Assembly (NCBI RefSeq): GCF_002741015.1 | Contig: NZ_CP016617.1 | Location: 372,001 to 436,000, forward strand | DNA from: Microvirga ossetica | Lineage (GTDB): Bacteria; Pseudomonadota; Alphaproteobacteria; Rhizobiales; Beijerinckiaceae | Length of the DNA stretch: 64,000 nucleotides | Reading direction: 5' to 3' | Position numbers and translations under genes: made by a program | Notes under the pieces: generated by a model | Database searches by the model: none | What the model saw: only the letters and a program-made list of their open reading frames with translations | Told to the model about the DNA's origin: nothing | Shown: one piece after another, positions 3,202-11,556 of the stretch | How the letters are laid out: the number at the start of each line of letters is the position of its first letter | Position numbering within the stretch: position 1 is the first letter of the stretch

Positions 3202-4391
3202 TGTGGCCGGGTCTCTGGCATTGCAACCAGCACCAGCACGAGCGGGATGAAGGCCACTCCAGCCAACATCAGAAACGCCGCCTCATAGCCGGCCCACGTC
3301 ACTGCCAATCCTCCTAGCGCCTGGCTGAGGGAGCCGCCAATTCCCTGAACAGTACCAACAAGGCCGCGAGCCACATTGTACCGCCCCGTGTCACGCATGA
3401 TATCGGCCAGAATAAGAGGCAAGAGTGCATCGAACAGGCCAATCCCGATGCCATCAAGCACTTGGACTGCGATCAACCAAGCCGCATTTCCAGAAAGCGT
3501 GAAGAGAATACCACGCAGCACCAAGGCGGCTATGGCAATAAGCAGAAGTGGTTTGCGCCCAGTCAGGTCGGCACGCGCCACGAGCAACGAGATCGGGACC
3601 ATCACGAGTTGCCCCACAACAATCGCGCCTGCGGTGAGGGCCACCTCCTGGCCTGGATGACCGAGCGCGAGCTTCTGGCTGACCAAGGGGAGCATTGCCG
3701 CATTGGCTAAATGAAAGATCGCCGCGACTGCGGCGAGAACTAGGAGGGAGTTGTCCGTCAGGAGCGTGCCCCAGCGACTAGGTTGGTGTTGACGAACTGT
3801 CATCGAGGGCACCCAACCGCGGGCACGCTGATGATCGATCGCGTGGCTTGGGATCGCGAGCACAATCCACACCGTCCACACGCCGAAGAAGGGGACCAGG
3901 TAAAAAACCGCCCGTTGGCCCCAGGCCGTACCAACAGCGCCCGCCACGGCAGCGATAAACAGGTTTCCGGCCCGATCGAAGGCAGCATTGCGCCCAAGGC
4001 GAGCAGCTAATTTGTCTCGGTCGACGAGGCCCAGTGTGATCGCCGCAACGACTGGTGCGAAGACGGCGCCCAAGATTGCCATTGCTACATCGGCCGCAAA
4101 CACAATGGGTACGATCGGGCGCCATGCAATAGCGATCGCGCAGGCCGAGAGTGCAACGACGCCCACCACGATAAGGCTGCGCTTGGCCCGGGTTGCGTCG
4201 ATCAGGGCTCCGATGGGAGCGTGCATAGAGATCCCGATCAGGCCGCTGATCGTCAGGACCAGACCGATTGTAGCTTGGTCCCACCCTGCCTCCGTGAGCA
4301 GGAATACGCTGACATAAGGTCCCAGCCCGCCCCTTACGTCGGCCAGCAGGAAGTTGAGCCAATCCAGCGCTGCATGATGGGACATGATCAC
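3198..4391 (-). CDS. MFS transporter
   Basis: The 397-residue protein has about twelve hydrophobic segments and the MFS layout. A loop with APIGALIDATRAKRSL after TM2 resembles the family A-motif (G-x-x-x-D-R/K-x-G-R/K), and there is a long polar loop near residues 185-205 between the halves. Substrate is not predictable. The gene ends within the stop region of the IS5 remnant on the other strand, so its last residues may have been altered by that insertion; PETRPH is nevertheless a normal MFS tail. An alternative start lies two codons downstream. A glycosyltransferase gene diverges 87 bp away. Confidence 0.8.
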   Translation of the reverse strand: MIMSHHAALDWLNFLLADVRGGLGPYVSVFLLTEAGWDQATIGLVLTISGLIGISMHAPIGALIDATRAKRSLIVVGVVALSACAIAIAWRPIVPIVFAADVAMAILGAVFAPVVAAITLGLVDRDKLAARLGRNAAFDRAGNLFIAAVAGAVGTAWGQRAVFYLVPFFGVWTVWIVLAIPSHAIDHQRARGWVPSMTVRQHQPSRWGTLLTDNSLLVLAAVAAIFHLANAAMLPLVSQKLALGHPGQEVALTAGAIVVGQLVMVPISLLVARADLTGRKPLLLIAIAALVLRGILFTLSGNAAWLIAVQVLDGIGIGLFDALLPLILADIMRDTGRYNVARGLVGTVQGIGGSLSQALGGLAVTWAGYEAAFLMLAGVAFIPLVLVLVAMPETRPH

Positions 4392-7879: not shown

Positions 7880-8623
7880 CTAAGCAGCGATTCGGTGGTT
7901 GGCCAACGGATGGCGACTTCGCTCGCAATTGAGCATCGCGACCGCCTCGTGGATGGCATCATCGAGGGTCTCTGGACCCGCGAAAGTCTGGTGAGCAAGA
8001 TGATGCTGCTTCAGATCGCGCCAGAGCTCTTCGATGGCGTTGAGTTCGGGAGCGTACTTTGGCAGCCATTCGACCGTGAGCCAGGGCGCCCGCTCGGCGA
8101 GGGCGGCGCGCGTCGCCTTGCTGGTGTGGATCGGGCCATTATCGAGGACGAGCACGATCGGCTTCGTCGCACGAGCGGACGTTGGGCCATACTGCGTGTC
8201 GATCTGGTCCAGCAGCGCGATGAAATCGGCACTGCGCTTGCTCCGGCTGGTGCGCACGATCAGGTCCCGCGGGGCCCAGTCGAGCAGACCGAGCATCGCC
8301 ACCTTGGCGGCTTGGCCGGGCGCTGGAATGCGCAGATCCGCGCCCTTCTTGGCCCAAGCATGGGCGAGATAGGGGTGGGTGAGCGCTTCGGATTCATCCC
8401 CGAACAAGAGCACGATATCGCCCGCCTCGGCCTGCGCCTTCAGGAGCTTGCGGCGCAGGCCGGCGCGGTCCACGGCGTCTGCATCCTGGCGGCCCTTCAG
8501 GGTATGGCGCGGCCGGCGCCAGCGGAAATCCCCTTTTGGCGCAACACGACCGAGAGCCGTGAGCGCGAGATGCGCACGCCGGAGCGCTTCTCGATCTCGT
8601 CGGCCAGCCGCGGCAAGGTCCAA
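7880..8623 (-). CDS. IS630 transposase OrfB (DDE catalytic part)
   Basis: This frame encodes the catalytic domain: DESEALTHPYLAHAW (first Asp), VLDNGPIHTSKATR (second Asp) and YAPELNAIEELWRDLK (third acidic residue). Real coding sequence starts around FRWRRPRHTLKGRQ, after the frameshift; the first ~33 residues of the open frame overlap OrfA and are not native. The stop codon TAG at 7880-7882 is formed by the duplicated target TA plus one host base, so translation terminates only because of the insertion site. Confidence 0.85.
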   Translation of the reverse strand: MDLAAAGRRDREALRRAHLALTALGRVAPKGDFRWRRPRHTLKGRQDADAVDRAGLRRKLLKAQAEAGDIVLLFGDESEALTHPYLAHAWAKKGADLRIPAPGQAAKVAMLGLLDWAPRDLIVRTSRSKRSADFIALLDQIDTQYGPTSARATKPIVLVLDNGPIHTSKATRAALAERAPWLTVEWLPKYAPELNAIEELWRDLKQHHLAHQTFAGPETLDDAIHEAVAMLNCERSRHPLANHRIAA

Positions 8624-8949
8624 TTGGGGCGATTTGCGACCGATCCCGCCAGAACCGCCTCGGCCACCGCGAGCGCCCGCTCGGCCTTGACCGGTGCCGG
8701 TCCCGGGGCAACGGATCGCCGCAGCGCGTCGACCCCACCCGTCATGAAAGCGCTGCGCCAGAGCCGCACGGTATCCTCGCGCACGCCGAAGGCCTCGGCG
8801 ATCCGCGGGCTCGTCCAGCCCGCCAGGGTCAGCAGGAGCGCCCGCGCCCGATCCGCCTCGCCCCGATCGCGCGAGTGGCTGAGAGCCATGAGCTCACGCC
8901 GCTGCGCGGCGCTTGCGACAACAGGGGATTTGCCCGCCATGATCCGCAT
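8497..8949 (-). CDS. IS630 transposase OrfA (helix-turn-helix part)
   Basis: The 150-residue frame contains a winged/helix-turn-helix region of the Tc1/IS630 type (SPRIAEAFGVREDTVRLWR, then a second HTH around RPNWTLPRLADEIEKRSGVR). It binds the terminal repeats. The last 20 or so residues past LRQKG are out of the transposase frame, because full-length protein requires a shift into OrfB near 8530. The upstream methionines place the start at 8949 or at 8940 (MAGKSP). Confidence 0.85.
   Translation of the reverse strand: MRIMAGKSPVVASAAQRRELMALSHSRDRGEADRARALLLTLAGWTSPRIAEAFGVREDTVRLWRSAFMTGGVDALRRSVAPGPAPVKAERALAVAEAVLAGSVANRPNWTLPRLADEIEKRSGVRISRSRLSVVLRQKGISAGAGRAIP
8530..8538 (-). promoter_or_regulatory. 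Probable -1 programmed frameshift site, CAAAAGGGG
   Basis: On the minus strand OrfA reads CAA AAG GGG and OrfB resumes with GAT TTC CGC one base back, giving LRQKG then DFRWRRPRHTL, the continuous family sequence. A-AAA-GGG type heptamers are common slip sites in IS630 and IS3 elements. Confidence 0.7.
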
Positions 8950-9221
8950 CCCGAACCAAACTATGAGATGGAATCACAGACAGCATCCGTTGGCCACCCC
9001 GCTGAAACCTGCTTAGCCGTTTAGATGGAGTATTCGGCTTGAGTCCTCTCTGCAACGGCAATGGTTAGAAGGCAGCGCTTCGAGCTGATGATAGCGTGAG
9101 GGTGATCCCTCACAAGCATCAGGACAGGGCGCGCAGCATGAAGCGACCGTGATGGAGTGGACGCCCCAACGGCCCTGGTGTGCCACAGTGGAGGTGTTGA
9201 TCATCACGTCAGGAGGCGTCC

Positions 9222-10247
9222 ATGGCAGAGGTTTGTACGATCGGGCTGGATTTGGCGAAGCATGTGTTCCAGGCTCATGGAGCCGATGCATCTGGAGCAG
9301 TCCTGTTCCGCAAGAGGTTGCGGCGGGCTCAGGTGCTATCATTCTTTGCGACTCAGCCGCCCGGTACCGTGGCTATGGAGGCCTGCGGCAGCGCCCTTCA
9401 CTGGGCGCGCGAGATCGGCAAGCTCGGTCATGCCGTGCGGCTGATCCCACCGGCTTACGTGAAGCCCTTCGTCAAGCGCCAGAAGAACGATGCCGCCGAT
9501 GCGCAAGCGATCTGTGAAGCGGCCCAGCGCCCGACCATGCGCTTCGTGGCGCCCAAAAGCGAGCAGGCCCAAGCCGCCGCTCTCGTGTTCCGGGCGCGGG
9601 ATCTCCTGGTGCGGCAGCGGACCCAGATCATCAATGCTTTGCGAGGTCATCTGGCCGAGTTCGGGATCGTGGTGGCCCAAGGACCGGCCCATGTCTCTTC
9701 CCTTGTGCGGGCCGTAGAGGACCCGGCTGAGCCGGTGCCGGAGATCGCTCGTGCCATCCTGTCGGTGCTAATCGAGATGCTGCACAGGCTGGATGGCAGG
9801 ATTTCCTTGCTTGATCGCGAGATTGCCCAGAGGGCCAAGGAGGATGTAACCGCACGCCGTTTGATGACGATCCCTGGAGTGGGTCCGATCACTGCAACAG
9901 CCTTGACGGCCTTGGCGCCGCCGGCCGAGACGTTCAAGCGTGGACGAGATTTTGCCGCCTGGATCGGCTTAACTCCTTTGCAGCATTCGACCGGCGGCAA
10001 GCAGAAGCTGGGGGCCACCTCGAAGATGGGCGAGCGAACTCTACGTCGCCTGCTGATCATCGGGGCGAGTGCTGTCCTGCGCTGGGCGGCCCGTCATGGC
10101 GCACCAGCCGGATCGTGGCTGTCTCGCATGCTGGCCCGCAAGCCGCCGATGCTGGTGCGGGTAGCATTGGCCAACAAGATGGCCCGCATGGTCTGGGCCT
10201 TGATGGCCAAAGGTGGGGACTACCGAGCTCCGGCCGTGAGCGTGTAA
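9222..10247 (+). CDS. IS110-family transposase (DEDD recombinase)
   Basis: The 341-residue protein has the RuvC-like DEDD tetrad expected of IS110 enzymes: Asp10 in GLDLAKHVFQ, Glu53 in AMEACGSA, and Asp90/Asp93 in KNDAADAQAI. A coiled region around 185-215 precedes the C-terminal Transposase_20 domain (MTIPGVGPITATAL, then HSTGGKQKLG with the conserved Ser). Length is normal for the family and no frame disruption is visible. These recombinases act with a structured RNA encoded by the element's non-coding end (established for IS110-family members). Start ATG 9222 follows AGGAGG at 9212-9217. Confidence 0.92.
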   Translation: MAEVCTIGLDLAKHVFQAHGADASGAVLFRKRLRRAQVLSFFATQPPGTVAMEACGSALHWAREIGKLGHAVRLIPPAYVKPFVKRQKNDAADAQAICEAAQRPTMRFVAPKSEQAQAAALVFRARDLLVRQRTQIINALRGHLAEFGIVVAQGPAHVSSLVRAVEDPAEPVPEIARAILSVLIEMLHRLDGRISLLDREIAQRAKEDVTARRLMTIPGVGPITATALTALAPPAETFKRGRDFAAWIGLTPLQHSTGGKQKLGATSKMGERTLRRLLIIGASAVLRWAARHGAPAGSWLSRMLARKPPMLVRVALANKMARMVWALMAKGGDYRAPAVSV

Positions 10248-10507
10248 GCGCTCGCGTCCGTGGGGCTGTTGGAGGCGTAGGAAAGTCGAAGGGGAGAGAT
10301 GGCGCAACGGTCGATGAGACGGGATCAGGAAAACCAGAGTGCAACAGCGTGCCTTGAGCACGTGACCGTGAGTTGGACTTGATCCGCGGACTTCCATCCG
10401 GGCCCGCGGCATGTGAATGGCCGCAGACGAGGCCGCACACATGTAAGCACTCGCCGACGCACTACACCGAACCTAAAGATTTCTCTTGCGTCACCTGGGG
10501 CGTCCAC
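10248..10507 (+). ncRNA. Candidate guide (bridge/seek) RNA region of the IS1111-group element
   Basis: The 3' non-coding region between the transposase stop and the right inverted repeat is about 250 bp long, has no coding potential, and includes short GC-rich pairing segments (for example TCCGCGGA and the CCGGGCCCGCGG stretch at 10386-10410). In IS1111-group elements this end encodes the RNA that directs target choice (family knowledge). RNA limits and guide loops cannot be fixed by eye. Confidence 0.55.
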
Positions 10508-10539
10508 ACATGTTGCACGGATCGACCGGGGCATGGATT

Positions 10540-11556
10540 TAACCTATCCTTGCCCGATCTCAGGCAACTCGAACAGGCTCCGGGCGCCCAAGCTCAGGCA
10601 TGCGGTTCAGGGCAGAAATGGCGATGGCGACTTCGGTCGCGCGACGCCCATCTGTTCGCGAGCGCCGCGCATCTCCGATCACTCGTTTAAGCCGGCTGAT
10701 GGCGGTCTCTACCAGAGCCCGACGCGTGTACCCGGATCTCTTCAGCCAGCCCATACGGCCATGCTTCGCGATGCTTTGGAGATGTTGGTCGCGATCGGAA
10801 GGAGTGCCCTCTGCCATGTTGCTCGGCACCGCCGTTGCTCGGGGTGGAACGATGACTTCGGCAGCAGGATGGTGCTCGGTGACGGTGCCATAGATGCCGG
10901 ACTGGTCATAGGCTCCGTCGCCAACGAAGGAGGCAAGTGGGCCGGGGATATGGTCGAGCAACGGCTCGACCTGCGTACCATCTTCGATAGCATGGGGCGT
11001 CAGCGCTGATGCGAGGATTTGTCCAGTCTCGGCGTCGACGCCGATGTGCAGTTTGCGCCAGGACCGGCGTCTTCGGGTGCCGTGCTTCTCGGTCAGCCAC
11101 TCGCCGGGTCCACACAATCGCAGGCCCGTGCTGTCGACCAGCAGGTGAACGGGCCCTCGCGAGCTTGGACAGGGCTTTGGCACCTCGAGGGTTTCGGCGC
11201 GACGGCTCGGGGTTGAGTGATCCGGCACCGCCAGATCCAGACCCAAGAGCTGAAGGATCGAGCCGATCAGGCCCTCCGTCTGACGCAGCGCCAACCGGAA
11301 CACGGCTCGCAGCGTCAATGCTGTCTGGATCGCCGAAGCCGAGTAGTGGGGCTGACCACCGCGTGTCGTGCGGGGCTCGGCCCGCCAGGCGGCAATCGCC
11401 TCGTCAGAGAACCAGACCGTCAGACTGCCTCGCTGGCGCAGGCTGGCGTCATACTCGGCCCACTTCGTCACCCGGTACCGCTGCTTGGGAATTCGGTGCC
11501 GACGAGTGGCGTTGGCTTTGAACGGCACGGCAGATGTCCGACAAGGAGGGGCGCAG
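10540..11556 (-). mobile_element. IS5-family (IS903-type) insertion sequence, ends approximate
   Basis: The transposase gene at 10560-11528 is flanked by a weak imperfect inverted pair (CCTATCCTTGCCCGATCT at ~10542 against the complement of AGATGTCCGACAAGGAGGGG at ~11531). Ends are therefore only estimates and no target duplication could be identified. A decayed relative lies at 2752-3201. Confidence 0.6.
10560..11528 (-). CDS. IS5-family transposase (IS903-type)
   Basis: The 322-residue transposase has an N-terminal DUF772-like region (GSLTVWFSDEAIAAWRAEP, residues ~34-53) and the DDE residues in LLVDSTGLRLCG, SFVGDGAYDQSGIYG and RRALVETAISRLKR. Length and uninterrupted frame suggest it is functional. 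It is the closest relative in the window of the fragment at 2752-3201, so the family has inserted at least twice. Start ATG 11528 reads MPFKANATRRHR. Confidence 0.88.
   Translation of the reverse strand: MPFKANATRRHRIPKQRYRVTKWAEYDASLRQRGSLTVWFSDEAIAAWRAEPRTTRGGQPHYSASAIQTALTLRAVFRLALRQTEGLIGSILQLLGLDLAVPDHSTPSRRAETLEVPKPCPSSRGPVHLLVDSTGLRLCGPGEWLTEKHGTRRRRSWRKLHIGVDAETGQILASALTPHAIEDGTQVEPLLDHIPGPLASFVGDGAYDQSGIYGTVTEHHPAAEVIVPPRATAVPSNMAEGTPSDRDQHLQSIAKHGRMGWLKRSGYTRRALVETAISRLKRVIGDARRSRTDGRRATEVAIAISALNRMPELGRPEPVRVA

Follow-up and report, generated by a model that had tools for sequence, protein, structure and literature searches.

The window (64,000 nucleotides of Microvirga ossetica DNA, which is the whole stretch analysed) harbours an insertion sequence of the IS1111 group with a DEDD transposase gene and a long non-coding 3' end, bordered on its right by an IS5-family transposase gene on the opposite strand (Table 1). 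On the left there are two overlapping frames on the minus strand (7880-8949), with helix-turn-helix domains (8497-8949) and a DDE_3 domain (7880-8623), which we take to resemble a frameshifted IS630-type transposase.

Table 1. Features of the IS1111-group element, its predicted RNA and its target site (positions in the window).
Feature	Position	Strand	Remark
Left target piece GACCG	9145..9149		Outer end of IS5-family terminal repeat, deduced from uninterrupted copies
Complete IS1111-group element	9150..10510	+	1361 bp
Left tip TGATGGA	9150..9156	+	Begins with the core TG, also in right flank
Left subterminal inverted repeat	9157..9168	+	
DEDD transposase, 341 aa	9222..10247	+	D10, E53, D90, D93; GLTPLQHSTG from residue 249
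Predicted guide RNA (seekRNA / bridge RNA) region	10310..10450	+	Model R1
Target loop	10322..10385	+	Closing helix 10322-10329 / 10378-10385
Target guide GTGCAACA	10339..10346	+	Complement of right-flank top strand, 8/8
Hairpin between both target guides	10347..10363	+	
Target guide GACCGTG	10364..10370	+	Equals left flank GACCG plus core TG, 7/7
Donor guide TTCCATC	10392..10398	+	Can pair with left end GATGGAG (one G-U); weak
Donor-loop stem GGCC/GGCC and hairpin GCGGC/GCCGC	10401..10434	+	Two hairpin pairs with two-sided changes
Donor guide CACACATG	10436..10443	+	Equals right end CACACA plus core TG, 8/8
TTGCGT	10486..10491	+	Possible circle-junction promoter, 17 nt before CATGAT once right and left ends are joined
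Right subterminal inverted repeat	10496..10507	+	
Right tip ACA	10508..10510	+	
Right target piece TGTTGCAC	10511..10518		Deduced from uninterrupted copies
IS5-family transposase of the element holding the target	10560..11528	-	PF13737, PF01609; NCBIfam NF033579
Putative target sequence of the window element			GACCGTGTTGCAC

The sequence-only reading had described a complete, apparently intact and compact element with exact 12-bp repeats, the full DEDD set and a non-coding end of about 250 nt, and all of this was borne out. When the published 7- and 3-bp tips are used, its boundaries are right to the base; the two repeats are exactly inverted over 12 nt (100% complementary), and the non-coding stretch, downstream of the gene, measures 248 nt from the transposase stop to the right repeat. 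Repeats, reading frame, catalytic residues, RNA region and target match are all intact. The transposase contains the Pfam domains PF01548 and PF02371, scores 324.3 bits (cut-off 140) with NCBIfam NF033542 ('IS110 family RNA-guided transposase'), and has the ISCro4 (PDB 9t56) and IS621 (PDB 8wt6) transposases as the solved structures nearest to it by sequence. The motif GL-P----S(T)G of the C-terminal domain is also present. Both the length of the protein (341 aa, for about 330-350 aa in the IS1111 group) and that of the subterminal repeats (12 bp, exact, for 11-13 bp) are those of the group. The four DEDD residues are invariant in 69 of 69 aligned proteins, that is, the window's own and the 68 intact frames from 77 elements (9 frames with stops were excluded); L001 within this set is the window's own copy.

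These 77 elements come from the best 80 of 543 relatives found in a contig scan, together with loci from the same genome and from related genomes. From 112 hits listed with their best repeat pair, 82 passed the filters and 77 remained after removal of duplicates, with 74 distinct non-coding regions. L055 and L102, whose ends are miscalled, are included in the 77-element guide scores and left out of the 75-element scan, of alignment A2, of the cluster permutations and of the flank surveys; L111 was also left out of A2. A second set was obtained from 18 of 40 listed plasmid records, 16 of them with usable ends (L164 and L172 were dropped); these 16 elements were not used in setting the guide columns, and they are not phylogenetically independent.

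Repeat pairs with 7- and 3-bp tips were called in 82 of the 112 homologous hits, and there are further copies and relatives in the genome; the 12-bp repeat is thus more than chance, and its explanation as a chance match was rejected. Comparison of the flanks with uninterrupted sites gives the same tips (7 bp on the left, 3 bp on the right) without added target bases. The core is the same in the left tip and in the right flank of 73 of the 77 elements, being TG in 58 of these, and the four exceptions are L067, L089 and the two elements with miscalled ends.

That the 3' region is a bare functionless tail was considered and rejected. A covariance model (R1) made from 39 sequences, none of them from Microvirga, finds the predicted RNA region of the window with 129.8 bits (E 5.6e-31), the next best match in the window having an E of 0.064, so the covariance check proposed in the earlier reading came out in its favour. 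Alignment A2 has 71 sequences, of which 70 are distinct, and 97.8% of its cells are paired in the named structure, against 25-43% when that structure is slid by 1-3 columns. The structure was drawn from A2 itself, which favours it. Two-sided changes affect 10 of the 23 pairs (97 cells, against 32.4 in shuffles), and they are compensatory in three of the five helices; in the helix closing the target loop they occur in 6 of 8 pairs, with 95.4% of the cells paired. The GGCC:GGCC helix of the donor loop is uninformative because its pairs never vary. In alignment A1, which lacks the outer stem, 4 of 13 predicted pairs have two-sided changes. The folding energy of single sequences was no better than that of shuffles (z -0.17 and -0.97), and a search of the window with Rfam at the gathering score gave no family.

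R1 matches were found in at least 24 places of the genome including that of the window, after scoring 150 of 7556 first-look candidates. These bridge-RNA-like places of the 9.6-Mb genome belong to several sub-groups with differing flanks. Two minor observations may be added: a 24-nt sequence at the gene end (10232-10255) has a counterpart of 75% identity where the donor loop ends (10431-10454), which may be chance, and in L105 (1568-1722, minus strand) the target loop in A2 contains an extra stretch which duplicates parts of the hairpin arm and of the second target guide.

The RNA region matches both strands of the target, and the guide for the top strand comes first. Comparison of the guide loops with the flanks, also proposed beforehand, was successful: the first guide pairs with all eight right-flank bases and the second is identical over seven bases across the insertion point. 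Both guides were first spotted by eye in the window, and alignment columns were then fixed for every element. On these columns the mean scores of the 77 elements with their own guides were 6.97 of 8 for the first guide (T) and 6.40 of 7 for the second one (B), against 4.40 and 4.20 with the guides of other elements, and none of 2000 permutations of guides against flanks was as good. T reached at least 6 in 67 of 77 elements and B at least 5.5 in 70 of 77; both values were reached together by 62 of the 77 own pairs and by 417 of 5852 swapped pairs. The elements below these values are L102, L109, L055, L119, L052, L047, L056, L063, L080 and L075 for T (10 of 77), and L102, L040, L055, L084, L068, L083 and L092 for B (7 of 77). 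For both target guides, no permutation in 5000 was as good within scaffold clusters (65 elements), nor any in 5000 among 20 cluster representatives. In the plasmid set (n=16) the own scores were 7.06 against 4.31 (T) and 6.41 against 4.17 (B), with 0 of 5000 permutations each and an equal core in 16 of 16 elements; T was below 6 in L167, L168 and L173, and B below 5.5 in L170, L171 and L174. Besides, when each RNA column was compared with the flank and end positions of 75 elements and no guides were named, LF-3, LF-2, LF-1, RE2, LF-5, LF-4, LE1 and RF+1 came out on top; weaker pairs without guide meaning rank lower, as is expected among related sequences.

The two halves of the donor loop behave differently. 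Across the same 75 elements, RNA position 10440 tracks the second of the three right-tip bases (identity 0.97), and position 10442 the first base of the core (1.00); ACAGATG appears in many elements ending in AGA, and ACACACG in many with the core CG. The right-end guide scored 6.92 with own ends against 6.30 with others (0 of 2000 permutations, 77 elements); in further runs of 5000 permutations none was as good among the 20 representatives or in the plasmid set, but 468 were as good within clusters. The left-end guide scored 5.27 against 5.10 (0 of 2000, 77 elements); in runs of 5000 permutations none was as good within clusters, where the difference is tiny, while 94 were as good among representatives and 73 among the plasmid elements. 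It could be argued that only the target loop acts, as a short seekRNA, that the protein reads the ends through the subterminal repeats and that the donor matches reflect shared ancestry; an 82-nt seekRNA was indeed enough for transposition of ISEc11 (PMC11187229), the left-end guide is weak and the right-end guide is not extreme inside clusters. Nevertheless, the tracking of positions 10440 and 10442 and the results of the right-end guide among representatives and plasmid elements make this explanation unlikely. The donor loop is likely to act in the RNA of the window element, as judged from sequence comparison, with support for its right-end half, while the left-end half is unproven. Of the structured RNA with target and donor loops that the sequence-only reading anticipated, the target loop and the right-end donor guide were supported, and the left-end donor half found weak support.

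The site occupied by the element can be read from IS5-family copies that carry no insertion (L132, L138, L139 and L152), which end in GACCGTGTTGCA. Judging by them, the element interrupts the terminal repeat some five bases from its outer end, at GACCG^TGTTGCAC; the precise tip of the repeat was likewise deduced from these copies. The pattern RCCGTGTTGCAYGRATC has 8 exact sites in the genome and 3 with one mismatch, and the reversed pattern has none. Insertion of an IS1111-type element into such a place has precedents: IS1383 was reportedly found in 2001 in the inverted repeats of IS1384, and IS4321/IS5075 in 2003 in terminal repeats of the Tn21 family. Like the window element, these sit in a terminal repeat that belongs to another mobile element, in other hosts and with other sequences.

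Further copies in the same genome (9.63 Mb) bear on the state and the history of the element. L002, on another contig, differs from the window element at 2 positions over 1361 bp; a third copy (L003 and L008) lacks the left end and is interrupted by an insert, and L004-L007 are relatives at 78-82%. The damaged third copy is in line with an element that keeps its parts and matching guides and has nevertheless lost its activity; this seems decidedly improbable for the window element, given that its parts are intact and that the copy on another contig is almost identical. The IS5-family right flank is common to L001, L002 and L008, and L001 and L002 differ at 4 positions only in its first 520 bases, as would be the case if the copies had travelled as passengers of the IS5-family element without separate insertion. 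However, the left flanks are unlike beyond CCG (that of L002, GGCCG, agrees with its guide at 6 of 7 positions), the terminal repeat is split by the insertion, and L001 and L002 show 44 differences over 861 positions of the IS5 flank. This uneven divergence of flank and element favours separate insertions, even though gene conversion could also give such a pattern, and passenger transport is very unlikely.

Taken together, the locus very probably contains an intact IS1111-group insertion sequence of the IS110 family, in which a transposase and a 3' non-coding RNA go together and the loops of the RNA read the target, the right end of the element and, less surely, its left end. The transposase would act together with an RNA transcribed from the non-coding 3' region. 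In this RNA, one loop would recognise the target on both strands, the target being the terminal inverted repeat of IS5-family elements. The other loop would recognise the right end of the IS1111-group element itself and, with less certainty, the left end, at the same TG core. The ends would join to give a circle and a promoter, as in published relatives, and this junction promoter would drive both the transposase and the RNA. The complex would then exchange strands at TG, inserting the circle without added bases. For IS1111 and IS110 elements, joined ends that form a circle and a promoter, a transposase-bound RNA, and exchange of target and donor at the core have been described (PMC11187229, PMC11208160).

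Work from 2024 already described the IS1111 family, the location of its RNA after the gene and the order in which the guides follow each other (PMC11187229, PMC11208160), as well as tips of 7 bp on the left and 3 bp on the right (PMC11187229); PMC11208160 also predicted donor-binding nucleotides for IS1111 RNAs. Since RNA place, guide order and tips are as published and the donor-binding nucleotides had been predicted, it is well supported that the window element joins a known family of RNA-guided recombinases. The 'new RNA-guided recombinase' of the earlier reading stands as a further member of this family and not as a new kind. ISEc11, ISKpn4, ISPst6 and ISPa11 share with it the subterminal repeats, the 7- and 3-bp tips, the downstream non-coding region, and a top-strand guide followed by a bottom-strand guide with overlap at the insertion point (PMC11187229). 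It differs from those seekRNA elements in its sequence and in its target, an IS5-family terminal repeat, and its RNA is a predicted one. The bridge RNA recombinases IS110/IS621 also have DEDD residues, a shared core and an RNA with one loop for the target and one for the donor (PMC11208160). They differ in that the RNA of the IS110 group lies at the opposite end, and in the long subterminal repeats of the window element. ISEc21, of the IS110 family, is likewise inserted under RNA guidance into another insertion sequence, in an IS3-family transposase gene; unlike the window element, it is of IS110 type, with an upstream RNA and a coding target (PMC11187229).

The less ordinary part concerns the targets of the relatives. 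A TGTTGCA-like right flank is present in 23 of 75 elements including the window's, with a long adjoining frame in 20 of the 23. Pfam was applied to 30 of the 32 frames of this class, the other 52 of 75 elements lying outside it, and hence the following counts have no background rate. IS5-type transposases adjoin six elements (L001, L002, L069, L073, L094 and L097), an IS6/IS240-type transposase (PF13610) adjoins L025, L061, L072 and L105, whose flanks are TGTTGCA- or TGTCGCA-like, and other transposase or integrase domains adjoin L062, L066 and L103; for 7 of the 20 elements with frames, no transposase or integrase domain was above the Pfam cut-off. The clade thus seems to reach IS6-family ends besides IS5-family ends. 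A general target survey by means of the longest one-sided frames was dropped, as these are too noisy in GC-rich DNA. A 52%-identical group with six loci in the window's genome (for instance L013) sits at GTTAACG^TGACA, and its RNA region has partial guide matches (6/8 and 6/7) which are too short to count alone.

A sister IS1111-type element with 46% amino acid identity (L021, 4224-5626, minus strand) has at least six full copies in Microvirga sp. VF16; its loci are L021, L022 and L232-L237. Five of the six fetched copies are flanked on the right by a truncated R1 match, which lies on the opposite strand (76.2 bits, three times 29.5 bits, and 28.5 bits), the flanks of L233, L234 and L237 being near-identical, and the flank of the sixth copy (L235) has no R1 match. 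These flanks indicate that the sister element lies inside bridge-RNA genes of other IS1111 elements. Its RNA carries GGTGCTG and CACATGACT; judged by eye, these agree with the left flank in L232 and L236 and, apart from 1-2 mismatches of nine, with the right flanks. The core in the right flank is AG or GG, unlike the TG of its left tip, and so is an exception to the core rule. In the open-licence literature no prior report of IS1111 elements inside bridge-RNA genes was found, which is not proof of absence.

It is possible, though we put it forward only tentatively, that the clade is specialised in hitting working parts of its rivals, namely the terminal repeats of IS5 and IS6 elements in the case of the window element and some relatives, and the conserved donor-guide segment in bridge-RNA genes of other IS1111 elements in the case of a sister element. 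If so, guide RNAs would drive competition between insertion sequences by disabling the mobility of rivals. In any case, the window element would be an RNA-guided element with the ends of other mobile elements as its target, and its genome and genus offer a natural series of close recombinases with differing guides and differing matching sites. Guide reprogramming, the IS1111 donor loop and compact RNA-guided insertion (341 aa) are directly testable on it. Two arrangements elsewhere may be added. In L074 (Sabulicella), near 4227, an R1 match abuts a second one on the opposite strand, and in L238, from the window's genome, the left flank looks by eye like the arrangement of the sister element.
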